NCBI GenBank assembly: GCA_017436785.1
Contig: JAFSCK010000165.1
Coordinates: 1 to 32,065, forward strand
Reading direction: 5' to 3'
Length of the DNA: 32,065 nt
Source of the DNA: Oscillospiraceae bacterium
GTDB lineage: Bacteria > Bacillota > Clostridia > Oscillospirales > Oscillospiraceae
In this document: one piece after another, positions 16,305 through 32,065 of the stretch
Position numbering within the stretch: position 1 is the stretch's first letter
Layout: each line of letters begins with the position of its first letter
Position numbers and translations under genes: made by a program
Notes under the pieces: model-generated
What the model was told of the DNA's origin: nothing
What the model saw: only the letters and a program-made list of their open reading frames with translations
The model's database searches: none

Positions 16305-19256
16305 TTATGCTGTCTTTTTCTTGCTGCGAATCATCATGAATGCACTGCCTGCGGTGGCAACTGCCAGAACGCCGATCAGGATGTACAGTGCCATCTGCCA
16401 CCAGGGAGTGACAGCAACAACGGTAGCATTGCCCACATTCATAGCATGACTATGGGTAATAGAGTAAGCAATGTTCTTGGTTGCTCTCTGTACTGCGGTG
16501 ACAATGGCAGGATCCTTATCCAGACCGTCCAGCGTTGCCATACCCATGGAGTAGCCGTCCCACAGGTCCTGGCCAGCCAGAACACCCATACGGTAATCCA
16601 TGTAGTTTGCCATGACAGAGCAGTCGGTGATGGCCGCGCCGGTCATGCCCCACTCATCGCGCAGGATGCCGGTCATCAGGCCGTAATGAGCGCCTGCCCA
16701 AACGACACCAATGCGGTTGAAGGAGCTCATGACGCCCATGCCGCCGCCTTCCACGATGCTGCCCTCGAATCCTTCCAGATAGACTTCGCGGATAGCCTGC
16801 TCGTTGGACCAGGTGGAGATGCCGTAACGGCCTTCCTCCTGATCGTTCAGTGCAAAGTGCTTGGTAAAGACATATACGCCTCTGTCCTGAATGCCCTTGA
16901 CCTCAGCGGCAGCCATCTTGCCGGACAGCCAGCCGTCTTCGGAGTAGTACTCAAAGTTTCTGCCGGAGTAAGGCGTTCTATGAATGTTGGCGCCGGGGCC
17001 ATAGATGCCGGAGAATGCGGTGCCGGAGCCATCTGTGGCATGCATGAAGTCCTCGCCGATGCACTTGCCCACTTCGTTCAGCAGTTCCAGATTAAAGGTA
17101 GCTGCCATCACATCCTCAGAGGTGTAAGCCATGGCACTGTTGCCGCCTACAAGGCTCTTGGTAAAGCCCTGAGGTCCGTTTTCATCATTGGTGCCGGGCA
17201 GATTGATGGAAGGAACAGGCTGGGTCAGATGGAAGCCGTTATAGATCAGATTGGTCATCTCGGTGTAAGGTACCTGGCTGATCAGATCTGCCCAAGCAGG
17301 ATCATCCACTGCTGCGGTTGCAAAATCACCTGCAGTCAAGGTTCCGGAAACACCCATTGCAGGAACAGTGGTGACATCGGAGTAGTACTTCTGCTTCATC
17401 TTCTCGACGATAGCAACTCTGCCGCTCTCTTCGTGGGTCAGGCCGTCTGCCCACATGGTTTCGGTAATACGCAGGGTTGCGGTGGTGGGCCAGGTGCCTT
17501 CCCAGTCGTTACGGGACAGATAGGTAATTGTCTGACCCTCTGCACCCTCATAGAAATTCAGGTTTGCATCATCAAACAGGTTGGTAATGGCGTTGCCGGT
17601 CGCAGAGGATACAGCATAGGTGGTAGTATCCATCTCTGCCAGAGTCCACTTTGCAGTCAGGGAAGCGTCACCGGTGCCGCTCATACGGGAAGCATCAGCA
17701 CCCTTAGCCATCAGGATGTTGTTGATAGCGTCATGAGCATCACGGCCCACAGTGAAGTAGTAGTCACCTGCATCCAGAATGTAGGTCTTGGCCTTCATGT
17801 AATCGTAGGAAGTCAGATCTTCCTTATCCACAGTAATGGTAAAATGCTCTGTTGCGCCAGCTGCGATCATCTTCTTATCGAAGCCACAGATCTCAACAGC
17901 AGCCTTTTCCACCAGATTGTCGATGTCATACTGGGTGTAAGGAGACTGGAAGTAGATCTGAACAGTATGCTTTCCGTCAACATCACCTACATTTTTGACA
18001 TCCACATCGACTTGAATGGTCTCGCCCTTATCTTCAACGGAGAAGTTGGAATACTCAAATTCGGTGTAGCTCAGACCATAACCAAAGGGGAACGCAACAT
18101 CATCATCGTAGACATATTCGCCTGCGTTGCCCTGATTCAGGACATAGTCCTCATAACGGGTCTCAAAGTAGCGGTAACCAACATAGATGCCTTCGGCATA
18201 GACCAGATAATCAGAGTTACACTTGCCAATACCGGCATCAGTATTATTCTGTGCAGTGGCAGTGTCGTAATTGGCTGCATTGGTATACTTGTATGCACCA
18301 AAGTTCTGCATTGCAGGAGAGGAATGGTTGTCCTTCAAGAAAGTATCCACAATACGGCCGGAGGGGTTGATGTCACCGACCAGAATATCAGCGACTGCGT
18401 TGATGCCGGTCATACCCACGTCGCCGATCCACAGGACTGCATCGATGCCGTAGTCGTCAACAAAGTCCAGCTGCAGCGCATTGGAGGAGTTAAGCAGCAC
18501 AACGATCTTTTTGAAGGTACCCTGCTCCTTCAGCTGCTCCAGATTCTCGAACATCTCGATTTCTTCCTTGCAAAGGCGCAGGTAATCACCGTCAGTCATG
18601 TACTCTTCCAGTTCAGGAAGACCGCTGGGCAGGTCAGCACCTTCACCACCGGAACGGGCCAGCACAACAAGGGCCACATCGCCGTAGTTTGCCCAGGTGC
18701 CCTTCAGAGCATCGCTATACTTTTCCCAAGGAACTTCATTGATTCGATACTGTGCCTGATTGCCGCCGGTGGTATCCGCGTTGACGCGCTTATAGCCAGC
18801 AGTAGCATAGAATTTCCACTGGTCAGGATTCACAGTACCCTCGCCGAAGGATGCTTCCAAAGCCGCCTTCAGGGAAACTGCATCAGCAGCAGATACCTGA
18901 CCGGAACCGGTGCCACCATACATCAGGTTAAATGCAGACTGGGAGAAGGGGGTGATCTTGCTGCCCTTCGCCAGAGGCAAGGTGTTGTCGCGGTTTACCA
19001 GCAGGGCTGCACCCTCACCTTCAACCGTTTCACATAGCTGCTTTTCATAAGCAACCAGATCTTCTTCATTTTCGTAATTAGTCCAGAAATAGATTTCTGC
19101 ATTGGGATCCGCAATGATCTTCTGAGTGGTTGCACCCAGAGTAACATTGATAACGGTTGCGAATGCGTTGGTCACCGGGATCGCTATGATCGAGATAACC
19201 AAAAGCACTGCAAGAACGGCTGTCAGGATCGTCCAAAGCTTATTAGGTTTCTTCAT
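16305..19256 (-). CDS. Membrane-anchored GH3 family glycosidase with reversed domain order
   Basis: This is a 983-residue exported enzyme. The hydrophobic N terminus (about 7-30, followed by an AFA site) is a signal peptide or anchor. The C terminus has a membrane helix at about 954-976 preceded by TPWWQ and followed by the basic tail RSKKKTA. The domain order is reversed from usual GH3. The alpha/beta sandwich comes first (RSGGEGADL with likely acid/base Glu205, FPFGYGLSYTEFEYSN near 400), then Fn3, and then the barrel. The barrel carries GRNFEYYSED, FTKHFALN and AAITDCS with likely nucleophile Asp878. Such reversed order has been described for some clostridial beta-glucosidases. The enzyme would trim beta-glucosides at the cell surface. 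ATG follows AAGGAGG by nine bases. It leads a transcript with GH2, GH43 and GDPD genes, and a close paralogue is at 29434-32065. Confidence 0.94.
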   Translation of the reverse strand: MKKPNKLWTILTAVLAVLLVISIIAIPVTNAFATVINVTLGATTQKIIADPNAEIYFWTNYENEEDLVAYEKQLCETVEGEGAALLVNRDNTLPLAKGSKITPFSQSAFNLMYGGTGSGQVSAADAVSLKAALEASFGEGTVNPDQWKFYATAGYKRVNADTTGGNQAQYRINEVPWEKYSDALKGTWANYGDVALVVLARSGGEGADLPSGLPELEEYMTDGDYLRLCKEEIEMFENLEQLKEQGTFKKIVVLLNSSNALQLDFVDDYGIDAVLWIGDVGMTGINAVADILVGDINPSGRIVDTFLKDNHSSPAMQNFGAYKYTNAANYDTATAQNNTDAGIGKCNSDYLVYAEGIYVGYRYFETRYEDYVLNQGNAGEYVYDDDVAFPFGYGLSYTEFEYSNFSVEDKGETIQVDVDVKNVGDVDGKHTVQIYFQSPYTQYDIDNLVEKAAVEICGFDKKMIAAGATEHFTITVDKEDLTSYDYMKAKTYILDAGDYYFTVGRDAHDAINNILMAKGADASRMSGTGDASLTAKWTLAEMDTTTYAVSSATGNAITNLFDDANLNFYEGAEGQTITYLSRNDWEGTWPTTATLRITETMWADGLTHEESGRVAIVEKMKQKYYSDVTTVPAMGVSGTLTAGDFATAAVDDPAWADLISQVPYTEMTNLIYNGFHLTQPVPSINLPGTNDENGPQGFTKSLVGGNSAMAYTSEDVMAATFNLELLNEVGKCIGEDFMHATDGSGTAFSGIYGPGANIHRTPYSGRNFEYYSEDGWLSGKMAAAEVKGIQDRGVYVFTKHFALNDQEEGRYGISTWSNEQAIREVYLEGFEGSIVEGGGMGVMSSFNRIGVVWAGAHYGLMTGILRDEWGMTGAAITDCSVMANYMDYRMGVLAGQDLWDGYSMGMATLDGLDKDPAIVTAVQRATKNIAYSITHSHAMNVGNATVVAVTPWWQMALYILIGVLAVATAGSAFMMIRSKKKTA

Positions 19257-19366
19257 TGCATATTTCCTCCTTAACAGGCTATTTTACAGTTACAATATAC
19301 AATTTATTTTCATGTCTTCCTAGTGAAACATCGCAAACTTACCAAATGATAGCATAAGTTTATAGG

Positions 19367-19424: not shown

Positions 19425-20747
19425 TTATTCAGCCTTGGTGGCAGTGTTGCCATCAACAGTCCAGTTCTCAGCGCCAACGCCAGTCCAGATCTGAGCGAAG
19501 GCGCCCAGAGTCTCAGCATCGGGAGCGGTAACGGTCAGAGCGTTGTCGGTCAGGGTGTAGGTGAAGCCCTCACGGGACATGCCGTATGCGGGGAATTCGA
19601 CCTTCATGTTGGTCTCATCCAGGCACAGCAGAGCCAGATCGCCAGCGTTATAAGCATTGACGATACCGGTCATGCTGTGGTCCTCGTTCAGGATATATGC
19701 ATGCTTCACAGCCATCCAGATCTGTGCGCCATAGCCTTCCAGCTCGCCAGCGGGAGTCAGGACAACTGCGCTGCCGATCTTCTCATAGGTGCAGGGAATG
19801 TCAGTGAAGACCTTCAGGTTTGCGGTACCATCGTCCTTCAGGGTCAACTCACCGGTGGTAGCGTTGCCGCCCAGATCCACGGAAACGGTGTAGGGAGCAT
19901 CAGCACTGACCTCAGCGCTGGGCAGAACGGAAACATCCTCGCAGACATAGACATAGTCGGTGGTGTAGTTGCCATCAAGGCTGCGGCTGTAGGTGAAGGA
20001 AGCCTTGTTGCCGTCCATGGTGACTTCAACAGCCTCACCGCCCACGGAAATGGTCACGCCGTCAGCAGTCTTGGTCCACTTGCCGTCTGCGAACTGGTCG
20101 TAGCCAGCATACAGCAGCAGGGTGCCGTCAGCCTGCAGGTAAGCAGTGCCGTTCTTCTCAGCATCCACGAAGGTACCAACATGCTCGGGAGCAGTGAAGG
20201 TAATGGCATAAGCCTGAACAAATGCATTGTCATCGGCATAGGTCTTCTCTTCCTTGCCTTCCATGGTAGCTACACGGGTGTAAGCCTGGCCAGGAACCAC
20301 GGGGAAGGTCATGTCGAAGCTGTAAACACCGGCCACGTCATAAGCATAGCAGGTCTGTGCGTTAGCCTCAGCACCGTTGCTGTCGATATATGCCAGCTTG
20401 ATCTGCAGGCAGGGAACGCCGTCCTTCTCAACTTCCTTCCAGGTACCGGACAGGTAGCTCTGAGTGTAGGACTCGTTAGTAGCCACATCGGAAGCGTCAT
20501 AGCTGCCGAAAGCATACTTGTCGCAGACAGCAGTGCCATCGGCGTTCAGTTCCAGCAGGAAGGCTGCGTTCAGGAAGGAGGAGAAGCCGCCGCTTTCCTC
20601 AAACTTGCCGTAGAACTGATAGGACTTGGTTGCAGCGGGAGCAGTGGTCTCCTTGGGAGCAGTTGTCTCGTTGTCGCCGCCACCGCAGGCTGCCAGCATG
20701 CCGACCAGCATCATAGCTGCCAGCACCAGAGCAATGATCTTTTTCAT
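19425..20747 (-). CDS. Lipoprotein of unknown function with repeated beta-rich units
   Basis: This is a 440-residue exported lipoprotein. The signal peptide MKKIIALVLAAMMLVGMLAA is followed by the lipidated Cys21 and a Thr/Ala/Pro linker. The mature protein is acidic and beta-rich, with repeated 'LxADGTAxxDxY...GTWK' style strands (for example ELNADGTAVCDKYAFG, YLQADGTLLLYAGYDQF, TLKDDGTANLKVF). This suggests three or so similar META/lipocalin-like or beta-sandwich modules. No catalytic signature is seen. Its gene is the last of a four-gene unit (lipoprotein, surface GH3, small membrane protein, this lipoprotein), with a hairpin after it. It could be a glycan-binding or scaffold partner of the surface GH3, which is inference from position only. 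ATG follows AGGAGG. Confidence 0.85.
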   Translation of the reverse strand: MKKIIALVLAAMMLVGMLAACGGGDNETTAPKETTAPAATKSYQFYGKFEESGGFSSFLNAAFLLELNADGTAVCDKYAFGSYDASDVATNESYTQSYLSGTWKEVEKDGVPCLQIKLAYIDSNGAEANAQTCYAYDVAGVYSFDMTFPVVPGQAYTRVATMEGKEEKTYADDNAFVQAYAITFTAPEHVGTFVDAEKNGTAYLQADGTLLLYAGYDQFADGKWTKTADGVTISVGGEAVEVTMDGNKASFTYSRSLDGNYTTDYVYVCEDVSVLPSAEVSADAPYTVSVDLGGNATTGELTLKDDGTANLKVFTDIPCTYEKIGSAVVLTPAGELEGYGAQIWMAVKHAYILNEDHSMTGIVNAYNAGDLALLCLDETNMKVEFPAYGMSREGFTYTLTDNALTVTAPDAETLGAFAQIWTGVGAENWTVDGNTATKAE

Positions 20748-20764: not shown

Positions 20765-21175
20765 TTACTTTTTGTTATGTTCCATAAAGGCAGCCACAAC
20801 TATGCAAACAGTCGCAACGCCAAAAATTATGGCAAAGATCAGCGCGAGGGTAAAGTTTCCGCCAAAGAAAGGAACGCCGGTCAGGACATCCGCCAGCGGA
20901 TAGGCAGATTCCACCAGATGGTTGGCAAAAGCCAGGCTGAGGCAAGCACCTGTGACCAGCGGTCCAAAGCGCAGCCGCAGTGCTTCCGTTGCGATTCCAG
21001 CCAAGCCACCTGCGATCATGAATCCAAAGGTCATCCAGTTAAATACACGATCGACACTGTCACCGGCAGTGATCATGTACACCGCTACAAATGCAACGGC
21101 GCCCACAATTGCAAGGACACTTGCGAAGAAGGACAGGTAGAATCCAAGCTTTCTGTTCTCAAAGAGCTTTTTCAT
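20765..21175 (-). CDS. Small four-helix membrane protein, unknown function
   Basis: This is a 136-residue integral membrane protein with four predicted helices (about 12-35, 45-66, 72-92, 108-131). It has a basic N terminus (MKKLFENRK) and a short basic tail (EHNKK), so both ends probably face the cytosol. No transport or enzymatic motif was recognised. Its start codon lies one base after the stop of the surface GH3 gene, and the AAGGAGG site lies in that gene's end, so the two proteins are made together. The 440-residue lipoprotein follows 17 bases later. A role in anchoring or organising the C-terminal membrane helix of GH3 is possible but not shown by sequence. Confidence 0.8.
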   Translation of the reverse strand: MKKLFENRKLGFYLSFFASVLAIVGAVAFVAVYMITAGDSVDRVFNWMTFGFMIAGGLAGIATEALRLRFGPLVTGACLSLAFANHLVESAYPLADVLTGVPFFGGNFTLALIFAIIFGVATVCIVVAAFMEHNKK

Positions 21176-21176
21176 C

Positions 21177-24056
21177 TTACTTCTCCTCCTTCTTCTTTTT
21201 GCAGGTAGTCAGCAGGAACATTGCCACACTTCCCACATACAGCGCAGCTACACCAACATTCAGACCTATCATCGCAGGCTTCCACCAGGGCGTGTAATTC
21301 TCTACGACCACTTCCTTGGACAGGCCGTTGATCAGGTTGGAACGGCTCATAGTATACAGGTAATACTTCGCAGTCTCGCGGAGCTTACCCCAGATGTGTC
21401 CGTCCTTATTCTTGGTCACCAGGCTTGTAGCCTCAGCTACACGGCCGGGATCGTTGTTGAACTGGTTGGTACCTGCATGGAGGCTATCAGGAGTACCCAT
21501 ATAGGATGCAGAGTCCTTAGATGAGTCGGTCATATTGATGCCGTTAAAGCCCCACTCATTACGCAGAACCTGAGTCTGAATCTCATAGTCCGCAGCGGAG
21601 GGAACACAGCCTACGCGGTTGAAAGCAGTCATGGTAGCCAGAGAGCGATCCTTCTGCAGCGCGCCCTCAAATCCCTTCAGCGGGCCCTGACGCAGTGCCT
21701 GCTCAGTCATAAAGGTTGCAACACCATGACGGTTGGTTTCCTGATCATTGCCGCAGAAGTGCTTGATGGTGCCCACACAGCCCTTCTTTGCCATAGCAAG
21801 TGTCTGGACCTCACCACAGAGATAGGACATAATTGCGTCCTCGGAGTAGTACTCGAAATTACGGCCAGAATAGGGAGTTCTGTGAATATTGGCACCGGGC
21901 GCATAGATCTGACGGAAGCCGATCCAGTAGCTTTCCTCCGCGATAAAGTCGCCGCGCTTTTCCAGCATTTCCTTGTTGAAGGTGGAAGAGGCAACCATTT
22001 CCGCATTGAACAGCGTGCCCTGCTGGTGACCGTCAGGGCCATCACCGCCGGCATAGGCAGGCAAATCGATGGATTCAATCATATCCATGCCCATCTTATC
22101 GCCGGTAATCTGTGCCAGCTCGGTAACGCTCATCTGGTCAATGAACTCATCCCACTTGGGATCGTCAAAGGGAACATCCTTCATATCAATGAAGCTGATG
22201 CCATTGTCCTGCTTGTGCTTGTACACAGAGATATCAGGGGCATCCGAAGGTTTTTCGTACTGATAGTTCTCCATCAGATCCTTGATCTCATCTGTTGCAG
22301 TCAGATCAGTGACAGCAGTGGGGAAGGTATTCCAGTCAGCGCGGGTCATATAGGTCACTGCATCTTCGATGAAGTAGTTGATATCCCGATCCTCAAAGAT
22401 GTTAGAAACCAGATTTCCGGTGCGCTGAGAGGTTGCGTAGGTGGTATTGTCCAGTGCAGTCAGCGTATCCTTGACAGTCTTTGCAGCATCGCCGTCTACA
22501 GGGTTACCCTCTGCATCGTACATACCGGTGATACCCTTGGCAGCCATCACATTATTCAGTGCGTCATGGGCATCGTCACCAATAGCAAAGTAGTAGTCAC
22601 CAGCATCGAAAACATAGCAGCCCTGCTTGGATGTATCCGCACCATTGACCGCATTGCTGTCATAGGTAGCAAAGATGTAATCGGAGAACTGGATGGTAAC
22701 AGTCTCACTCTCCCCTGCTGCCAGAGCAGAGGTCTTTGCAAAGTCTACAAGCTGGATAGCGCTCTTTTCCGCCTGTCCTGCTTCATAGGGCAGCTGCACA
22801 TAGAGCTGGACTACATCCTTGGACTTGCCGGTGTAAGTTTCATCACCGTTATTGGTGACCTTTACCTGGGCAGTGACCATGTGGGTGGTCTTGTCCCACT
22901 CCACACTCAGAAGCTCCTGCGTAAAGTCAGCATAGCTCTGGCCTGCACCAAAGGTGAATACCATTTCGTCCGCATAGTTCCATGCGCCATTCTGGGAGGC
23001 ATAGACGCCCTTAGCGCTGGTTGCATTATTGATGCCCAGGATCTCGTCCTGATAGCGGGTCTCATAGTACTTGTAACCCACATAAATACCCTCGGCATAG
23101 ATCAGGTACTTATTCTTATACAAGCCAGTCAGATTGGTAAAGGTGTAATCACCCATATTCTGCATAGCTGCACTGGACAGAGAATTGGTTGCATAAGTGA
23201 TGACATTCCGTCCGGAGGGGTCAGCCTTACCGGTCAGAATATTGACTACGCCGTGCATGCCATAGTTACCGGTGTAACCGATCCACAGGCAGGCATCCAC
23301 GCCGTATTCCTCCAGCCAGCCCAGTTCCATGGCATAGCCGGAGTTCAGGACCACGATGATCTTATCGAACTTACCGGAGTCCCGAATCATGGTCAGGGTA
23401 TCGATCTCCTCCTGATGCAGCGCCAGCTCGGGAACGCCCACAGGACCTTCCTGCCAGTCGCCCTGAAGGCCGTGGTTCAGGTCGCCCTCTTCGCCGCCGT
23501 AACGGCTCATGACATAGATCGCAGCGTCGCCGTAATCAGCAAACGAGTTTTCTGTTCCAGCATAGGCAGAGGCGGGGAGCTCACCGATCAGGCCGGTCTT
23601 AGTACGCTGAGAGGGGGTATTTACGATTGCGTTGTACACCGTCTCGTTAACCTTGACACCGGCTTCCTTCAGTGCGTCATACAGGTTGATGCCTGTATTG
23701 GCAGGGCCGCCGGAGCCACCGTGGTAAACCGGTGTTGCCGCGGCATAGCCAAAGAGGGTGACGCTGGCAGTCTCGGACAGGGGCAGTGCATTGTTCACAT
23801 TTCTCAGAAGGACAGAACCTTCCTCCTGGCTTTCGATCAGATATGCCTTCTGGGCGGAGCGCATTTCCTCCATGGAGGCATAGTCGGATTTATAGTATGT
23901 AGTATCATCAGTTGCGGAAATAGCGGGGGGCAGTGTTCCCAAGAAGAGATTGACATCGCCCTCACGGGTAAATGCCAAGCTTGTACCAAAGCTGGTCAAG
24001 CACAGCAGCAAAGACATTACAGCTGCCAAACCCCGCCAAAGGTTACTTTTTTTCAT
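21177..24056 (-). CDS. Membrane-anchored GH3-like glycosidase, divergent paralogue
   Basis: This 959-residue protein has an N-terminal signal peptide (to about residue 29, SLAF) and a C-terminal membrane helix (about 927-951) after YTPWWKP, ending CKKKKEEK. It has the same reversed GH3 order as its neighbour. The alpha/beta sandwich is first (SRYGGEEGDL, acid/base region; VFTFGAGQSYADF), then an Fn3-like part, then the barrel with GRNFEYYSED, TIKHFCGNDQ and NMTDSS (likely nucleophile Asp844). The acid/base motif differs from the other two anchored GH3s (GGEEGDL instead of GGEGADL), and it lacks their usual 'MDYRMGVLAGQD' segment after the nucleophile, so its specificity probably differs. ATG follows CGGAGGG. 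It is co-transcribed with a lipoprotein upstream (32-bp gap) and a four-helix protein downstream (1-bp gap). GH3 membership is firm; activity is untested. Confidence 0.92.
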   Translation of the reverse strand: MKKSNLWRGLAAVMSLLLCLTSFGTSLAFTREGDVNLFLGTLPPAISATDDTTYYKSDYASMEEMRSAQKAYLIESQEEGSVLLRNVNNALPLSETASVTLFGYAAATPVYHGGSGGPANTGINLYDALKEAGVKVNETVYNAIVNTPSQRTKTGLIGELPASAYAGTENSFADYGDAAIYVMSRYGGEEGDLNHGLQGDWQEGPVGVPELALHQEEIDTLTMIRDSGKFDKIIVVLNSGYAMELGWLEEYGVDACLWIGYTGNYGMHGVVNILTGKADPSGRNVITYATNSLSSAAMQNMGDYTFTNLTGLYKNKYLIYAEGIYVGYKYYETRYQDEILGINNATSAKGVYASQNGAWNYADEMVFTFGAGQSYADFTQELLSVEWDKTTHMVTAQVKVTNNGDETYTGKSKDVVQLYVQLPYEAGQAEKSAIQLVDFAKTSALAAGESETVTIQFSDYIFATYDSNAVNGADTSKQGCYVFDAGDYYFAIGDDAHDALNNVMAAKGITGMYDAEGNPVDGDAAKTVKDTLTALDNTTYATSQRTGNLVSNIFEDRDINYFIEDAVTYMTRADWNTFPTAVTDLTATDEIKDLMENYQYEKPSDAPDISVYKHKQDNGISFIDMKDVPFDDPKWDEFIDQMSVTELAQITGDKMGMDMIESIDLPAYAGGDGPDGHQQGTLFNAEMVASSTFNKEMLEKRGDFIAEESYWIGFRQIYAPGANIHRTPYSGRNFEYYSEDAIMSYLCGEVQTLAMAKKGCVGTIKHFCGNDQETNRHGVATFMTEQALRQGPLKGFEGALQKDRSLATMTAFNRVGCVPSAADYEIQTQVLRNEWGFNGINMTDSSKDSASYMGTPDSLHAGTNQFNNDPGRVAEATSLVTKNKDGHIWGKLRETAKYYLYTMSRSNLINGLSKEVVVENYTPWWKPAMIGLNVGVAALYVGSVAMFLLTTCKKKKEEK

Positions 24057-24754: not shown

Positions 24755-24760
24755 ATTCTA
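24755..24760 (-). promoter_or_regulatory. Possible -10 box of the minus-strand glycosidase transcript
   Basis: TAGAAT on the minus strand lies about 45 bases upstream of the lipoprotein start. The -35 position (24778-24783) reads AAACAA, far from consensus. This fits a promoter needing an activator, and the nearest copy of the 21-bp-period repeat ends 11 bases upstream of that -35 position. Confidence 0.35.
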
Positions 24761-24794
24761 TCTTAGGTTTTTTCTGTTTGTTTCGCAATATAAA

Positions 24795-24847
24795 CCGCGT
24801 AACCTTATCCCCCTACCGCACAACCTCAAGTTTTAACAGCATAACCT
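24795..24847. promoter_or_regulatory. Three direct repeats at 21-bp period: candidate LytTR response-regulator binding array
   Basis: An 11-bp element with pattern C[C/A]GC[G/A][T/C]AACCT occurs at 24795-24805 (CCGCGTAACCT), 24816-24826 (CCGCACAACCT) and 24837-24847 (CAGCATAACCT). The period is exactly 21 bases, two helical turns. LytTR regulators such as AgrA bind direct repeats spaced about 21-22 bp, usually just upstream of a promoter. Here the array lies between the two divergent promoters: the last copy ends 14 bases before the TTGACT -35 box of the two-component operon, and the first lies 11 bases from the minus-strand -35 position. The binding assignment is inference; the repeats are seen directly. 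Confidence 0.7.
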
Positions 24848-24861
24848 ATCCCCCAGCTTCA

Positions 24862-24890
24862 TTGACTTAATTTGGCGAAAATGCTATACT
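24862..24890 (+). promoter_or_regulatory. Sigma-A promoter of the two-component operon
   Basis: TTGACT (24862-24867) and TATACT (24885-24890) are separated by 17 bases, with a TGC extension before the -10 box. Transcription would start near 24897, giving a short leader before the AGAGGGTG ribosome site. Confidence 0.75.
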
Positions 24891-24914: not shown

Positions 24915-25625
24915 ATGGTTAACATTGCCATCGTAGAGGATGACAAGCTGCAAGCCTCCCAGTTGGAGAACGCACTAAAGCGTTACAGCGAAGAATTTCG
25001 CACGCCCCTAAGAACCACTGTCTTCCATAACGCCATGTCCTTTCTGGGAAAGTATGCCGCAGAATACGATATCATTTTCATGGATATCCTGATGCCCATG
25101 ATGAACGGCATGGATGCCGCCCGTGCATTACGGGAAAAGGATGACAAGGTGATGGTCATTTTCGTCACCAACATGCAGCAGTACGCCATTCAGGGCTATG
25201 AGGTAGGTGCCTTTGACTACATCCTTAAGCCAGTCAATTATCCGGAGTTCAAGCTAAAATTCACCCGCGCCCTTGGCAAGCTGATGCCACAAAAGAAAGC
25301 AGCCAGTGTGCTGATCAAGTCTGAGTCCGGTGTGGTCCGCCTCACCCCGGAGCAGATCATTTATGTGGAAGTCCAGCAGCATCATTGCATCTACCACACC
25401 AAGCAGGGCGACTACCGGCAATATCAGACCATGAAGAGTGTTGAAACCCAGCTTGCAGAATACGGCTTCGCCCGGTGCAATAACTTCCTGCTGATCAATC
25501 TTGCCTATGTCAGCAAGATAGAGGGAATGAATGTCTATGTGGATGGTCAGGTTCTTCCTGTCAGCTATCCCCGTAAGAAGCAGTTCTCCGAAAAATTCTC
25601 TGAATTCATGGGGGCAGGTGTGTAA
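24915..25625 (+). CDS. LytTR-family response regulator (AgrA/LytR type)
   Basis: This 236-residue response regulator has a receiver domain (1-120) and a LytTR DNA-binding domain (about 130-232). Phosphoacceptor Asp57 is in IIFMDILMP, with acidic residues Glu8-Asp9-Asp10, Thr85 and Lys105 (YILKPVN) completing the site. The LytTR part has the typical ESGVVRLTPEQIIYVEVQQH, RCNNFLLINLAYVSKI and GQVLPVSYPRKKQF segments. It would bind direct repeats in promoters once phosphorylated by the partner kinase. Its stop codon overlaps the kinase start by one base. It is divergent from the minus-strand glycosidase genes, with three 21-bp-period repeats in between, so autoregulation plus control of the glycosidase genes is the natural model. 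Family is firm; the target set is inferred. Confidence 0.95.
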   Translation: MVNIAIVEDDKLQASQLENALKRYSEEFRTPLRTTVFHNAMSFLGKYAAEYDIIFMDILMPMMNGMDAARALREKDDKVMVIFVTNMQQYAIQGYEVGAFDYILKPVNYPEFKLKFTRALGKLMPQKKAASVLIKSESGVVRLTPEQIIYVEVQQHHCIYHTKQGDYRQYQTMKSVETQLAEYGFARCNNFLLINLAYVSKIEGMNVYVDGQVLPVSYPRKKQFSEKFSEFMGAGV

Positions 25626-26974
25626 TGGAATTCTTGTATAATTTTCTTGGCCCATACACCTGGGAAGGGTATGCGCTGGGCCTTACCTTTCTGGAAACCC
25701 AGATCTGCATTATGTTTTTCGCCCGTTCGCTAAAAAAAGGTACATGGTTTCCCCTGCGGGTCATTCTTTCTTTTATTCTCGGTTTTTTAGGTTGCTGTTT
25801 GCTGGCTGTATGGAAGACCACTGTTGATACTTTGCCGGTACGAGTCATTTGCTACCTGATCATTACACTTATCAACATGGTAATCACGCTCATCTGCTAT
25901 CGCGATACCACCGTCAATGAGCTTTTGGTATTTTGCTCCGGCAGTGCCGCCTATCAGGTGGCCGGCAAGTTCTATCCCCTGCTCCAAAATCTTTTGGGTA
26001 TCAATGACCGGGAAACCATTTCTCTGTTTCATAACGGTTCAACGAAGATTCAGGATTGGGAATGGGTGCTGTTCATTGCACTTCTTATCTTCATGTACTG
26101 GCTGCTATCAATTGTTTTCCGGCCCAAAACAAGGCTGATTGAAGATCAAACTACCACCCGGAATGTGGTCATGCTTTCTATCTCTGTTGTGTTGATTGTC
26201 AATGTTCTCATCTGCATTTCCCGGGTTTATGAAGCTGAAAGCTTCGCGCTGAACATCGTCGTAAAGCTGTTCAGCATCGGTTTTGGCTTTGTGGTGCTGC
26301 TGACCTGCACAGGTATCCTCTCCCGTAATGAGCGCGAGCAGCAAATGAGCATTCTTCAGCAGCTTTGGAAACAAGATCTGTCCCAGTTTGAGTCGGTCAA
26401 AGCCAACATGGATGTGATCAACATGAAGTGTCACAATCTGAAGCACATCATTGGCAAAATCGAGGGAAAGCTGACTGAAGAAGAAGTGGCATCACTGCAG
26501 GAAGCCATTCAGTTCTACGATTCCAACATCAAAACCGGCAACAAGGTACTGGATGTGGTACTGTGCGAAAAGGCCATGCTATGTCAAAAAAATGGCATCA
26601 AGTTTTTCTGCATGGCTGACGGCGAAAAGCTCAATTTCCTCACCCCTGTGCAAACCTACACCCTCTTTGGCAATATCATCGATAATGCAGTAGAGGCTGT
26701 ACAGCTGGTGGAGAATCCCGACAATCAGATGATCAGCCTGCTCTGCCGGGAGAACAATGGGTTCCTTGAAATTGAGGAATCGAATTACTTCGATGGTCCC
26801 CTGCTTCTGGAGGATAATCTTCCCACCACCACAAAAGAAGATCCCAATCAGCACGGTTTCGGCATTAAATCCATTAAATACATTACCGAACAGTATGGCG
26901 GCAAGCTTGCCGTCAGTGTGGAAGATAATATGTTCTTCCTGAAAATCCGCTTTCCGCTGGCGCAAGAAAAGTAA
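25625..26974 (+). CDS. AgrC-like GHKL sensor histidine kinase
   Basis: This 449-residue membrane sensor kinase has six or so predicted helices in residues 10-230, with no large extracellular domain. A short linker leads to the dimerisation helix with HNLKHIIG (phospho-acceptor His270) and a GHKL ATPase domain (NIIDNAVEAV at 350-359, HGFGIKSIKYI at 410-420). This is the AgrC/NatK/VirS-type arrangement, which senses peptides or membrane-associated signals and phosphorylates a LytTR partner. No AgrB/AgrD-like peptide-making genes are visible in the window, so the ligand is unlikely to be a locally encoded autoinducer and may be a glycan fragment or membrane cue. ATG overlaps the regulator stop (TAATG) for coupled translation. 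A strong terminator follows. Confidence 0.93.
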   Translation: MEFLYNFLGPYTWEGYALGLTFLETQICIMFFARSLKKGTWFPLRVILSFILGFLGCCLLAVWKTTVDTLPVRVICYLIITLINMVITLICYRDTTVNELLVFCSGSAAYQVAGKFYPLLQNLLGINDRETISLFHNGSTKIQDWEWVLFIALLIFMYWLLSIVFRPKTRLIEDQTTTRNVVMLSISVVLIVNVLICISRVYEAESFALNIVVKLFSIGFGFVVLLTCTGILSRNEREQQMSILQQLWKQDLSQFESVKANMDVINMKCHNLKHIIGKIEGKLTEEEVASLQEAIQFYDSNIKTGNKVLDVVLCEKAMLCQKNGIKFFCMADGEKLNFLTPVQTYTLFGNIIDNAVEAVQLVENPDNQMISLLCRENNGFLEIEESNYFDGPLLLEDNLPTTTKEDPNQHGFGIKSIKYITEQYGGKLAVSVEDNMFFLKIRFPLAQEK

Positions 26975-27028: not shown

Positions 27029-29437
27029 TTATTCTGCTGTAATGGTATACTCCGCGGCTTCTGTCAGCTTGATGCTTCCATCCTCCAGCAGTTCGTATGC
27101 ACCGCCGGTTACCGTGATCTGAGTACCTATGGACTGGGGAAGTCTGACAATTCCCTCACTGTCAATGGCTTTGACAGTCATGACGGTCTTCCCTTCCGTC
27201 TTATTCAGGCTGACTGAGATATTTCCCTTGGGCGTATAGACCGTGCATTCTACACTGTCCAGCACATCCGCCGGAGCGATCTCGTACTTAGTAAAGCCAG
27301 CTTCCGTAGGCGCAATACCTGCAACATACTTGGAAAGGATGTACATGGGTGCTGCAGTCCAGCCGTGGTTGATGGTGCCGATATCATCGGTAAACTGCTC
27401 CCACAGGGTATCGTACTCGTCCTTCAGCATACAATCATAACGGTCCAGCATACGCTTTAGCGCCAGATCTTCTTTACCCATCACGCATAGGGCTTCCAGA
27501 ACATACTTTTCACAGAAGGGGCTGGCCTCATAGATATTGGACAGCACCATGCTGATCAGGTCGTAGTCTTCTTCCGTAGCCAAGCCAGACAGCGCCAGCA
27601 TGGCGTTGGCACGGTCATCGATGTACTTGCTGTCCAGATCCTTGAAGCCAAGGGGGGTATAGTAAGCATCGTGCCAGTTTTCCTCAATGGAGGTCATCCG
27701 CTCAGACAGGAACTGCGCATCGGTGGTGATTCCCAGATCCTCTGCCAGCTGGCTGGTCAGGTTGAGTGCATAATAGTAGAAGCCCACTTGAAGCAGCTGC
27801 GCATCGATTTTTTCACCCCAATCGTTCCAGGTCCAGGAACCGGGACGGTAGACAGGCAATCCATTTTCCATTTCAAACAGCTTCAGATAAGAAACGAAAG
27901 CTTCATAGTATGCGGTCATTGTTTCCACATCGCCGGAGTGGAGCCAGTAATGGTAAGCACTGGTCATAAATGCCAAGCTCTGATTAGGGATCTCCTGGGG
28001 TTTCACACTGGGCGCGCGGCTGGGAATGGCGCCGGAATCGGTGGTCCAGCCAATGCAGGCAAGGATAGCCTTCTTGGTCATGGCAAAACCTTCCGCATCA
28101 TAGCCATACAAAGCTGCGTCGATCTGATTGGATGCATCGCCCATATAGGGGCCCCGCTCCCGTTCCGGACAGTCCATGTAGGTATCACGCATGCAGATGG
28201 CGATGGTGTTCAGGCTCTCCTGCCACAGCTGATTGAGCTGCGCATCGGAGGAGGTGAAGTAGCCTGCCCATTCACCGTTGAATTCGCTCTTGCGGTAAGC
28301 CAGCTTTGTAAAAGTCACACCGGCTTCTGCCTCGATGATCAGCTTGGTACCGCTGCGCCAGGGGTAATTTTCATAGGTCTGGGTACCTTCACTGGTCACA
28401 TAGGTATCCTTAAAATTCTCGTGTCCTTCTTTGTCTGTATAAGTGTCAGTATACATGGTCAGCCGCTTACCGGCAGGAGCATCCAGCTCAAAATAGGTGG
28501 TAAACTGAATATTTCCGGGCAATTCCAGCACCAGGGTGGTATCTTCCGTCAGAGTCTTACCCACATAATCTGCCGCATTGGCAAAATCTGTGATCTCATA
28601 GAACTTGATGGGCTTGATCATGGCGGCGTACAGGTCGCCAAAGGGCAGGTCGCCAGCATTGGCCACCAGCGTTGCATTCTCCCATGCACTGTCATCATAC
28701 TGTACGGCAGTATAATCACCAATATTATCAGAAGCCACATAGTAGACATTCCGTTCCGCCAACATAGATGTCTGATTATACTTGGGATACTCCGCTCCGC
28801 CGGTGACACGATTTTTGTAAGCATTATGCCGCTGCACCTTCCAACTGCTGTCAGATTTGATCACCTGACCACCTGCGTTCATCTCAAAGATCATACCCGC
28901 CTGGGTGTACTCGTCACCCAGTTCGTCGGTGACCACAGGGACAATGGAGCTGTCACCGGAGCGGCCATTGAAGGCCACCAGCAGAACGATCACATTTTCA
29001 CCCTTCTGGAGATTGGTGATCTTAATAGAATCGTAGTACGAGTCATAGGGCGTGGGGCCACGCTTCAGGCTGCCATCCAGAACCAGCATCTCGCCATTGA
29101 CCCACAAAACATATTTGTCAACAGCGGAGATATATGCTGTTGCGCTTTCTACGGCCTCATCCAGGGTAAAGGTCTTGCGGAAAGCTACATAGCTATCCTC
29201 GCTGCAGCTCTTGGTCCAGATCCACTGGCCAGTCCAGTCGGTCTTTTTGTAGTCTTCAATCGCATCGGTATACAGCAAATTAGACTTGTCCGGTGTTCCC
29301 CGATCAGGAACCGTCGCTTCTGTCGGTGCTGCTGTGGTCTTGTTGGGTACATCTGGCTGACCGCAGCCCGCCATCGACAGCACGGACACTGCCACCAGAA
29401 GTATGGCGATAAGTCTGAGAATCGATTTTTTCATCAT
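27029..29437 (-). CDS. Surface lipoprotein GH78-like alpha-L-rhamnosidase
   Basis: This is an 802-residue lipoprotein with the signal peptide ending SMAGC (lipidated Cys25) and a Thr/Ala/Pro linker. It has GH78-type beta domains (about 70-390), then the (alpha/alpha)6 catalytic domain (about 395-710) and a C-terminal beta domain. DCPERERGPYMGDA (422-435) holds Asp422, Glu427 and Asp434 at the spacing of the GH78 acid motif, and Glu680 in TLWEQFTDD matches the general base, with NHGWTAAP following. The usual ERLGWTGD reads ERGPYMGD, so substrate fit may differ from standard rhamnosidases. It would remove terminal alpha-L-rhamnose (or a related sugar) at the cell surface. Its ATG overlaps the preceding GH3 stop by four bases (ATGA), and a second in-frame ATG three bases in has the better ribosome-site spacing (8 versus 5), so the true start may be 29434. 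Confidence 0.9.
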   Translation of the reverse strand: MMKKSILRLIAILLVAVSVLSMAGCGQPDVPNKTTAAPTEATVPDRGTPDKSNLLYTDAIEDYKKTDWTGQWIWTKSCSEDSYVAFRKTFTLDEAVESATAYISAVDKYVLWVNGEMLVLDGSLKRGPTPYDSYYDSIKITNLQKGENVIVLLVAFNGRSGDSSIVPVVTDELGDEYTQAGMIFEMNAGGQVIKSDSSWKVQRHNAYKNRVTGGAEYPKYNQTSMLAERNVYYVASDNIGDYTAVQYDDSAWENATLVANAGDLPFGDLYAAMIKPIKFYEITDFANAADYVGKTLTEDTTLVLELPGNIQFTTYFELDAPAGKRLTMYTDTYTDKEGHENFKDTYVTSEGTQTYENYPWRSGTKLIIEAEAGVTFTKLAYRKSEFNGEWAGYFTSSDAQLNQLWQESLNTIAICMRDTYMDCPERERGPYMGDASNQIDAALYGYDAEGFAMTKKAILACIGWTTDSGAIPSRAPSVKPQEIPNQSLAFMTSAYHYWLHSGDVETMTAYYEAFVSYLKLFEMENGLPVYRPGSWTWNDWGEKIDAQLLQVGFYYYALNLTSQLAEDLGITTDAQFLSERMTSIEENWHDAYYTPLGFKDLDSKYIDDRANAMLALSGLATEEDYDLISMVLSNIYEASPFCEKYVLEALCVMGKEDLALKRMLDRYDCMLKDEYDTLWEQFTDDIGTINHGWTAAPMYILSKYVAGIAPTEAGFTKYEIAPADVLDSVECTVYTPKGNISVSLNKTEGKTVMTVKAIDSEGIVRLPQSIGTQITVTGGAYELLEDGSIKLTEAAEYTITAE

Positions 29438-32065
29438 TTATTCCTCCCACTATTTTTCTTATCCGTCCGTACCATCATAAAAACACATCCTGCCGCCAGG
29501 ATAACCATAACTGCCGTTACGGCAAACAGTGCAATCTGCCACCACGGCGTGACTGTGACCACTGTGGCATCGCCAATGTTCATGGCATGGGTCCTTGTCA
29601 CCGAATAGACCACATTCTTAACGCTCCTGTGGACTGCGCTGGTGATTGCAGGATCATTTTCGCTGCCATCCAAGGTGCCCATGTTACCCTTCTGTCCGCA
29701 CCAGTAATCCTGGCCTGCCAGAACACCCATCCGGTAATCCATCCACTTGGCATTCATGGCCATATCAGTGATTGCAGCACCTTCCATGCCCCATTCATCC
29801 CGGAGGATTCTGGTCATCAGCCCATGGTGCGCACCTGCCCACACAACACCGACCCGGTTGAAGCTGGACATCACATTCATTGCGCCACCCCGGATGGCGC
29901 CTTCAAAGGCTTCCAGATAAATCTCACGAATAGATTGCTCATTGGCCCAGACGGAAATACCGTAACGGCCTTCTTCCTGATCATTCAGTGCATAATGCTT
30001 CACAAAGGCTAGGACACCTTTGCTACGAATGCCCTGCACCTCCGCGGCGCAAATTTCGCCGGAGAGCCAACCATCCTCGGAGAAGTATTCGTTATGTCTG
30101 CCGAGATACTGGGTTCTGTGGATATTTGCACCGGGTGCATAGATTCCAGCAATGGCAGAAGCGTTTGCGCCCTGATTTCCGTGGAGCATATCCTCAGCAA
30201 TGCACTGACCTACCAACGAGACCAGTTCCCGGTTGAAGGTAGCTGCCATCACATCTTCAGAGGTGAATGCCATGCCGCTGCCGCCACCCATCAGGCTCTT
30301 GGTAAAGCCCGTTGGGCCGTCCATTTCCTGTGTAGCAGGAAGATTGATGGCAGGCAGCGCAGGTGTATTGTAGGCACCGTTATAAACCAAATTAAGCTGG
30401 TCCTCATAATCGATCTGGCTGACAAGCGCATCCCAAGAAGGATCATCATAGTCGATGCCAACAAAGTCGATGGCTTTCAGTGATCCCGTCTTGCCGCTAT
30501 CCGCCACTGTAGTCACATCCGACCAATACTGCTGCTTCATGCTCTCCACGATGGCAACCCGGCCGCTTTCCTCATGGGTCAAACCATCAGCCCACATTTT
30601 ATCTGTCACATATAGCAACTGTGCTGTAGGGTAGGTACCCTGCCAATCACTGCGGCTGAGGTATGTAACTGTCTGACCTTCCGCACCCTCATATTTATTC
30701 AGGTCAGCGTTGTCAAACAGATTGGTGATAGAGTTTCCTGTATAGGCAGAGACAGAATAGGTAGTTGTATCCAGCGTATCCACAGTCCATTTGGCCGTCA
30801 GTGAAGCATCGCCGCTGCCGGTCATCCGGGCAGCATCCGCACCTTTCGCCGTCAGAATATTGTTCACGGCGTTATGGGCATCGGTAGCAACGGTAAAATA
30901 GTAGTCACCGGCGTCCAGAATATAGGTCTTGGCATTATTTGCATCGTAGCTGGTCAGATCATCCTTCAAAACATTGATGGTAAACTGCTCGGTACTACCT
31001 GCGGTGATCAGCTTCTTGTCAAAGCCACAGAGCTCAACTGCTGCCTTTTCAATACCGTTGTCCTTATCATACTGCGTGTAAGGAGACTGGAAATAGATCT
31101 GTACGGTGTGCTTGCCATCCACTGCGGAAGTGTTGGTCACATCTACCGTCACATCAATAGAATCGCCCTTATCTTCGATGGCAAAGTTTGAGTATTCGAA
31201 GGTGGAATAGCTTAATCCCGCGCCAAAGGGGAACGCAACCTGGGATGCATAGTTGTAATCTCCCGCATTCCCCTGCCCCAAAACGAAATCTTCGTAGCGG
31301 GTCTCAAAATAGCGGTAGCCCACATAGATGCCTTCCTGATAGACCACATAGTTCATATTACATTTGTCAATTCCGGCATCCTGATTGTTCTGGGCTTCAG
31401 CCAATCCCCATTCTGCAGCATTGGTATAGGGAAAGGCGTCGTAGTTTTCCATGGCAGGTGACGCATGGTTGTCCTTCAGGAAAGTATCCACCAGCCGCCC
31501 AGAGGGATTGACCTTACCGGCCAGAATATCTGCAACTGCGGGGATACCGTTCAGGCCCAAATTACCCACCCACAGCATGGCATCAAAATCGTAATCGTCG
31601 ACAAAGTCTAACTGCAGTGTGCTGGAGGAATTCAGGAGCACCACCAGCTTCTTGAATACGCCTTCCTTTTTCAGCGCATCAAGATTCTGAAGCAGTTCCT
31701 TTTCCTCGGCACAAAGCTGAAGATAATCGCCGTCAGTCATGTACGGCTCCAGCGCCTCCAACCCGCTGGGCAGATCCGCGCCTTCACCGGAGGAACGGGA
31801 CAGCACCACCAGCGCCACATCGCCATAGGCTGTAAAAGTAGATTTCAGTGCGTCAGAATATTTCTCCCACGGCACCTCATTGATCCGATATTGATCCGGG
31901 TTGCCGCCGGAAAGCTTGGCATTTTCACGCTTATAACCGGAGGTAATATAGAATTTCCACAGATCTATGTTAACACATCCGGGAGCAAAGCTTGCTTCCA
32001 GTGCGCTGTAAAGAGAAGTCGCATCGCCGGTGGACATAAAGGCAGAGCCCGTTCCCGTCAACACA
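29434..32065 (-). CDS. Membrane-anchored GH3 glycosidase, N terminus missing at right edge
   Basis: 876 residues of a GH3 enzyme with reversed domain order are visible; about 107 N-terminal residues (including the signal peptide) lie beyond the window edge, judged from its close paralogue at 16305-19256. The alpha/beta sandwich (LSRSSGEGADL, FPFGAGLSYSTFEYSN) precedes an Fn3-like part and then the barrel. The barrel ends with FVKHYALN and AAITDMA (likely nucleophile at visible residue 767). The C-terminal helix after TPWWQ and basic tail RTDKKNSGRNK anchor it in the membrane. The conserved GRNFE substrate motif reads GRHNE here, a change at a usually invariant Asn. Translation is coupled to the GH78-like gene by a four-base overlap. 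A surface beta-glycosidase working with the rhamnosidase is the likely role; the first visible codon is internal, not a start. Confidence 0.93.
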   Translation of the reverse strand, partial: VLTGTGSAFMSTGDATSLYSALEASFAPGCVNIDLWKFYITSGYKRENAKLSGGNPDQYRINEVPWEKYSDALKSTFTAYGDVALVVLSRSSGEGADLPSGLEALEPYMTDGDYLQLCAEEKELLQNLDALKKEGVFKKLVVLLNSSSTLQLDFVDDYDFDAMLWVGNLGLNGIPAVADILAGKVNPSGRLVDTFLKDNHASPAMENYDAFPYTNAAEWGLAEAQNNQDAGIDKCNMNYVVYQEGIYVGYRYFETRYEDFVLGQGNAGDYNYASQVAFPFGAGLSYSTFEYSNFAIEDKGDSIDVTVDVTNTSAVDGKHTVQIYFQSPYTQYDKDNGIEKAAVELCGFDKKLITAGSTEQFTINVLKDDLTSYDANNAKTYILDAGDYYFTVATDAHNAVNNILTAKGADAARMTGSGDASLTAKWTVDTLDTTTYSVSAYTGNSITNLFDNADLNKYEGAEGQTVTYLSRSDWQGTYPTAQLLYVTDKMWADGLTHEESGRVAIVESMKQQYWSDVTTVADSGKTGSLKAIDFVGIDYDDPSWDALVSQIDYEDQLNLVYNGAYNTPALPAINLPATQEMDGPTGFTKSLMGGGSGMAFTSEDVMAATFNRELVSLVGQCIAEDMLHGNQGANASAIAGIYAPGANIHRTQYLGRHNEYFSEDGWLSGEICAAEVQGIRSKGVLAFVKHYALNDQEEGRYGISVWANEQSIREIYLEAFEGAIRGGAMNVMSSFNRVGVVWAGAHHGLMTRILRDEWGMEGAAITDMAMNAKWMDYRMGVLAGQDYWCGQKGNMGTLDGSENDPAITSAVHRSVKNVVYSVTRTHAMNIGDATVVTVTPWWQIALFAVTAVMVILAAGCVFMMVRTDKKNSGRNK

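Follow-up and report, generated by a model that had tools for sequence, protein, structure and literature searches.

Does the short repeat between a LytTR regulator gene and a divergent cluster of surface glycosidase genes act as an operator, and if so, which protein would bind it and which genes would it serve? We examined this in the window, i.e. the whole 32,065-nt stretch of Oscillospiraceae DNA that was analysed, and in related loci and genomes (features in Table 1). Our main reading, held at a probability of roughly 0.85 from sequence comparison, is that the array is a LytTR-type operator through which the neighbouring regulator would bind and activate the lipoprotein-GH3 operon and a small glycosidase regulon.

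The repeat array and its geometry

Three exact copies of CMGCRYAACCT (AGGTTRYGCKG when read on the minus strand) start at 24795, 24816 and 24837 in a pattern match of the window, with a strict period of 21, as had been predicted from the letters. A whole-window search for further exact copies found none, and matches with at most one mismatch numbered 8 against 3.3 expected; 1 of 100 shuffles had as many. The exact pair was unique to this array within its own genome (3.05 Mb, 174 contigs, 91% complete), and allowing up to three mismatches added two sites, on contigs C168 (1 mismatch) and C89 (3 mismatches); the reversed control gave 0 in both cases. The array is real and non-random, and does not show the random frequency that the original prediction had named as its counter-case. 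The C168 site lies at a paralogous GH3 locus, where a secreted-looking alpha/beta-hydrolase lipoprotein (L058:892-2033, G000:C168) has the own genome's best operator match outside the window.

Table 1 Features of the repeat array, its presumed promoters and the surrounding genes, in window coordinates.
Feature	Position	Strand	Remarks
Repeat copy 1, promoter-proximal half-site for glycosidase operon	24795..24805	-	plus CCGCGTAACCT, minus AGGTTACGCGG
Repeat copy 2, distal half-site	24816..24826	-	plus CCGCACAACCT, minus AGGTTGTGCGG
Repeat copy 3, extra copy	24837..24847	-	plus CAGCATAACCT, minus AGGTTATGCTG
-35 TTGCGA of leftward promoter	24783..24788	-	by eye; 6 nt from copy 1
-10 TAAGAT of leftward promoter	24760..24765	-	by eye; 17-nt spacer
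-35 TTGACT of regulator promoter	24862..24867	+	by eye; 14 nt past copy 3
-10 TATACT, extended TGC, of regulator promoter	24885..24890	+	by eye
Lipoprotein-like protein, 206 aa	24089..24709	-	function unassigned; first gene of proposed operon
GH3 glycosidase, swapped domain order	21177..24056	-	signal-peptide-like N-terminus, C-terminal membrane anchor by eye
136-aa protein	20765..21175	-	hydrophobic by eye; gene order kept in relatives
440-aa lipoprotein-like protein	19425..20747	-	
Possible weak second element	19317..19362	-	60 nt before second GH3; score 11.3
Second GH3 glycosidase, swapped domain order	16305..19256	-	
Response regulator, receiver + LytTR domain (PF04397)	24915..25625	+	proposed binder
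Sensor kinase, GHKL ATPase domain HATPase_c_5 (PF14501)	25625..26974	+	
GH78 rhamnosidase	27029..29437	-	relatives in other loci carry element
Third permuted GH3	29434..32064	-	promoter beyond window

In the permuted GH3 proteins, the C-terminal GH3 domain precedes the N-terminal domain. Three window GH3 proteins are swapped in this way (16305-19256, 21177-24056 and 29434-32064), and the one at 8296-10713 has the usual order. Comparison of the regulator with solved structures gave receiver-domain matches among the 60 of 138 matches listed.

LytTR direct repeats are described as usually separated by 12 bp and as strongly favouring a position 10 bp before the -35 (PMC6193735, available text), a rule derived from systems of a LytTR regulator and a membrane protein, not from two-component pairs; a second source states a 9-12-9 rule plus a 10-11-10 variant (PMC2766830, available text). 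The operators of AgrA, VirR, SilA and HdrR/BrsR likewise consist of two 9-bp direct repeats ~12 bp apart (PMC6193735, PMC2766830, available text), and the two VirR boxes stand right before the -35 on one helix face, as does the window pair (PMC2838878, available text). Placed in the 9-mer frame TAAGGTTAC, the window half-sites have 12 bp between them and lie 10 bp before the leftward -35. Direct half-sites with a period of ~21, a repeat ~10 bp before the -35 and a LytTR-domain regulator (PF04397, E 5.1e-15) were all found. The targets differ, being toxin, bacteriocin or competence genes in the available text of those LytTR papers and glycosidases here. Further differences from the AgrA, VirR, SilA and HdrR/BrsR operators are the letters (AAGGTTRYGCGG) and the third in-register copy in this lineage. 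Presumably, the window letters are similar to AgrA or VirR sites.

Judged by geometry, the array is a putative LytTR-type operator of ordinary kind, with one extra copy and an uncommon target set. The claim that a LytTR-type direct repeat stands beside a LytTR regulator and next to glycosidases agrees with both this geometry and the conservation in relatives described below. Distances of 11-14 bases to both -35 regions had also been claimed; reading by eye, the rightward distance is 14 as stated and the leftward one is 6. We presume TTGCGA-17-TAAGAT to be the lipoprotein promoter. The regulator -35 was similar, by eye, in the upstream sequences of L050-L052.

In the mechanism we propose, the GHKL kinase would phosphorylate the neighbouring response regulator (24915-25625), which would then, most likely as a dimer, bind the two promoter-proximal copies and recruit RNA polymerase to the lipoprotein-GH3 promoter, TTGCGA-17-TAAGAT. 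A few other glycosidases would be under the same operator, forming a small regulon that trims a glycan outside the cell. Binding is probably made stronger by the third copy, through which the regulator may also contact its own promoter. We infer the neighbouring regulator as binder, activation as the outcome, the co-regulation of the targets and what the kinase senses.

Conservation of the pair and the status of the third copy

The 206-aa lipoprotein was used as a marker of the locus. At E 0.001 it had matches in 14 of 136 genus genomes (7 full-length, 7 short N-terminal), and a wider contig scan yielded 39 named loci, nearly all from MAGs, under the labels Oscillospiraceae, Clostridiales, Bacilli and others. 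The comparison covered 41 rows, equating to 40 distinct loci, one contig being present as both L076 and L102. A search for the element in the intergenic region of related genomes, proposed with the original prediction, found a pair with no more than 5 mismatches across its two 11-mers (22 positions) in 21/40 lipoprotein loci, which are not independent events and include close relatives (L087, L088, L089, L106). Spacing 21 was the best of 14-32 in all 21 pair loci, with 0/200 shuffles as good, and a TTG stood exactly 6 nt past the pair in every one of them. A LytTR regulator gene was divergent within 360 bp in 19/21; L094, which starts close to a contig end, had no regulator match, and in L122 the regulator was 1.3 kb away.

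In the remaining 19 loci, mostly distant, the best pair had 6-10 mismatches. Seven of these nevertheless had a TTG 6 nt after the weak pair (L099, L100, L101, L103, L104, L112, L113), among them L099, L101, L103 and L104, where a regulator match was absent from the stretch examined. No clear pair was found in L110, L116, L118 and L119, yet each has a LytTR regulator (32-39% identity) in divergent orientation. Across the 19 lipoprotein promoters without a clear pair, the spacing-21 peak was weak (8.53 vs ≤8.05). The conserved part of the putative operator is the pair facing the glycosidase operon.

At spacing 21, copy 3 was found in two of the 21 pair loci, namely the window and its closest relative L085 (the same contig as G031's), and was absent from the other 19 (22 rows, with L076/L102 as one locus). 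We regard the third copy as having been added in register in this lineage. It had been predicted that one three-copy array drives both directions. In this reading the regulator would also control its own promoter, by activating or blocking it, and we regard this as rather unlikely. Several observations are consistent with it: copy 3 sits 14 nt from the regulator -35, near-copies stand 23 bp upstream of the pair in L091, L093, L098 (2 mismatches) and L108 (3 mismatches), with that of L091 abutting the presumed regulator -35 by eye, and L105 and L107, loci with longer gaps, have an additional pair in the opposite orientation, towards the regulator gene, with 5 mismatches in each locus. However, each of the three window copies is oriented towards the glycosidase operon, copy 3 at this spacing is missing in 19/21 pair loci, within the 41 rows only L105 and L107 had a regulator-facing pair with at most 5 mismatches, and TTGACT-17-TATACT with its extended -10 looks strong unaided (by eye). 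As L105 and L107 do carry the regulator-facing pair, autoregulation is possible in some lineages of the family. For the window itself, a pair directed at the glycosidase operon, with copy 3 added, is the reading we prefer.

A different arrangement was seen in L086 (1717-1800), where two back-to-back operator pairs point away from each other, one towards a GH78 gene, the other towards a GH3 gene. Each direction has a pair of its own here, and the arrangement is genuinely two-directional.

Other sites, the candidate regulon and the identity of the binder

A 46-bp profile comprising the pair and the -35 was built from 17 rows and scanned over 43 loci (681 kb), giving 60 matches above 11. Mononucleotide shuffles gave a first maximum of 10.4 and, in ten more scans, maxima of 5.0-14.5 with 4 matches above 11 altogether; single matches of 11-15 are therefore weak on score alone, since shuffled maxima reach 14.5. 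Five of the 60 lay on duplicate contigs (L052 = L087, L102 = L155), leaving 55, with 24 at the lipoprotein promoter. Because the 17 training rows were scanned too, only matches off the lipoprotein promoter are independent of the profile. These numbered 31, although they are not 31 independent events, as L051 and L087 are near-identical species and some other loci likewise. The original prediction had also proposed looking for the element before other glycosidase genes, and 20 of the 31 preceded GH3, GH78 or GH2 genes (blastp of the downstream frame). A further seven preceded genes for lipoproteins, six of them related to the 440-aa protein and one a hydrolase, and three preceded genes without identification (L093, L108, L122:8829). 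The remaining match, L050:6665, lies within the kinase gene and was rejected as false.

The second and third GH3 genes of the window were compared with their relatives in this respect. The score of 11.3 at 19317-19362 is within chance (shuffled maxima to 14.5, 10 scans), so that only its position supports an element there, and a GH3 gene in L155, 80% identical to the window's second GH3, has a strong element (41.3). In the nearest relative, an element precedes the GH3 that is 88% identical to the window's third GH3 (L050:14258, score 30.6), and another precedes the relative of this third GH3 in L051 (35.2). The same operator thus appears to stand before a few other glycosidase genes (permuted GH3, GH78), which looks like a small regulon.

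Identical 46-bp elements ~3.1 kb apart were also observed before neighbouring GH3 genes in L051 (279 and 3394) and L087 (16382 and 19497). The two GH3 genes of each pair start nearly alike, one being nearest the window's third GH3 (76%) and the other nearest the second (66-81% across the portion compared), which looks like the outcome of promoter copying or homogenisation.

We also searched the 136 genus genomes for the pair with at most 2 mismatches. This gave 35 matches in 24 genomes, compared to 3 in 3 for the reversed pattern, and the pattern was present in 7/7 genomes with the full-length lipoprotein versus 17/129 others. Re-scoring with the profile covered 28/35 matches, leaving out 3 from the own genome, 2 from G131 and 2 from G157. 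Genomes with profile scores above 11 were G031, G131, G155, G036, G023 and G157, plus G148 and G002, the latter two being the only ones among the 17 without the full-length lipoprotein. In G148 (64% complete) the site precedes a GH78 gene; G002 scored 16.2, and the remaining 15 genomes scored at most 10.9, the value of G128. Many 2-mismatch matches, e.g. AGGATGTGCTG pairs, had a profile score below 4 and were set aside. An open frame across the site gave no discrimination, the GH78 promoter sites in L147-L149 crossing frames of 559-603 aa.

Other LytTR regulators encoded in the genome might also be the binder, among them a 41% identical paralogue at C168 near the 1-mismatch site. In favour of such a protein as the main binder of the array are the 1-mismatch pair before the hydrolase lipoprotein at C168 and a degenerate pair, visible by eye only, before that locus' own GH3, which escaped the automated test (L058 ranked 13 of 22). 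We consider this improbable, given that the pair and a divergent regulator co-occur in 19/21 loci, which argues for the neighbouring regulator. That the repeats are chance or a functionless remnant, as the narrow conservation of copy 3 might suggest, is scarcely credible when pair, spacing and -35 distance are kept in 21/40 loci and the site, rare in its own genome, also precedes other glycosidases.

Paralogous systems, precedents and the Agr question

Regulators 33-41% identical to the window's are numerous in some genus genomes. We compared 32 loci at ≥33% identity (L033-L038, L044-L069), orthologues included. GH3 genes matching the permuted queries (tblastn) were found in 19/32, with L056 having a contig-end piece only; L057 has a weak GH3 piece besides (tblastn). 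Pfam was used to check the domain order of L058, L035 and L053, the N-terminal domain of L053 being below the cut-off. GH78 was identified by Pfam in L033, L034 and L062, with weak GH78-like matches in L065 and L068. Neither GH3 nor GH78 was found in L039-L043, which have less similar regulators.

A motif-free comparison was made of 15 paralogue-side glycosidase promoters. Their self-match at spacing 21 averaged 9.07 of 12, compared to 7.0-7.93 at 21 other spacings and 7.25 in dinucleotide shuffles (sd 0.23, max 8.13 of 300). With ties counted, spacing 21 ranked first in 10/15 promoters (the best match of L059 lying inside the gene) and was not first in L033, L038, L058, L063 and L067. When L033 and L062 were dropped as likely L034 orthologues, it ranked first in 9/13; 100 shuffles gave 1.4 on average and never more than 4. 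A smaller peak was seen in 45 paralogue promoters that included those of regulator genes (7.98 vs ≤7.38). The half-site letters vary by locus, e.g. CAGTTTGTGCAA in L035 and GTTTGCGAA in L053, and this suggests that the paralogous systems may have separate DNA specificities. By eye, 33 regions upstream of other genus LytTR genes held no window-motif array beyond orthologues, the sole exception being a single half-site at C168. The paralogue set could provide a test of how LytTR proteins separate their DNA specificities. More tentatively, and at somewhat less than an even chance, gut Firmicutes would have a large LytTR/GHKL family in which each system has its own surface glycosidase (permuted GH3 or GH78) and its own 21-bp-period operator variant. 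This would be a one-sensor, one-enzyme set directed at external glycans, and the anchored enzyme or its partner lipoprotein may contribute to making the signal. One paralogous regulator gene (L049:3568-4262, G034:C28) has an in-frame TGA, which marks either a pseudogene or an error in the assembly.

Control of glycosidases by an Agr-type system had been predicted to be unusual. The target set is indeed uncommon, but the coupling of LytTR regulators to a secreted GH3 is not wholly new, as Butyrivibrio proteoclasticus B316 was reported in 2010 to have three LytTR response regulators beside secreted GH3 enzymes with a C-terminal transmembrane helix (PMC2914790, available text). That neighbourhood is of the same kind as the window's, where a LytTR regulator likewise lies near a secreted GH3 with a C-terminal membrane helix (signal peptide and anchor by eye). 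B316 is another organism, and the available text of PMC2914790 gives no operator or regulon. The polysaccharide utilisation locus gpPUL Ros-7 of Roseburia intestinalis lists RR[LytTR] and HK, a pairing of LytTR regulator and kinase like the window's, although its enzymes differ (GH25, GH43 and GH51) and the available text gives no operator (PMC5320581). Among the matches listed for the open-access literature, no operator or regulon for LytTR-glycosidase systems was recognised by title and abstract start. The switch looks conserved and largely textbook in kind, applied to an unusual gene set. For the LytTR/GHKL systems located next to surface glycosidases in uncultured gut Firmicutes, it provides a concrete putative operator together with a short list of targets, and the operator sequence allows target finding in genomes of organisms that cannot be cultured.

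The LytTR regulator class is best known from quorum sensing and virulence, and would by these findings be linked to glycan foraging. The original prediction labelled the system Agr-like. AgrC carries a GHKL ATPase domain, and both the LytTR regulator and the GHKL (HATPase_c_5) kinase of an Agr system are found in the window. However, Agr systems have AgrB, and no AgrB (PF04647) was found at the window locus. The sole match in the genome (C119:3437-3964) is on another contig beside a different LytTR regulator, leaving the label, and with it Agr membership of the window system, unsupported. On C119, AgrB adjoins that other LytTR regulator (2176-2886) and a GHKL kinase (region G000:C119:2176-3964, L039), and this locus is probably a real agr-type system.
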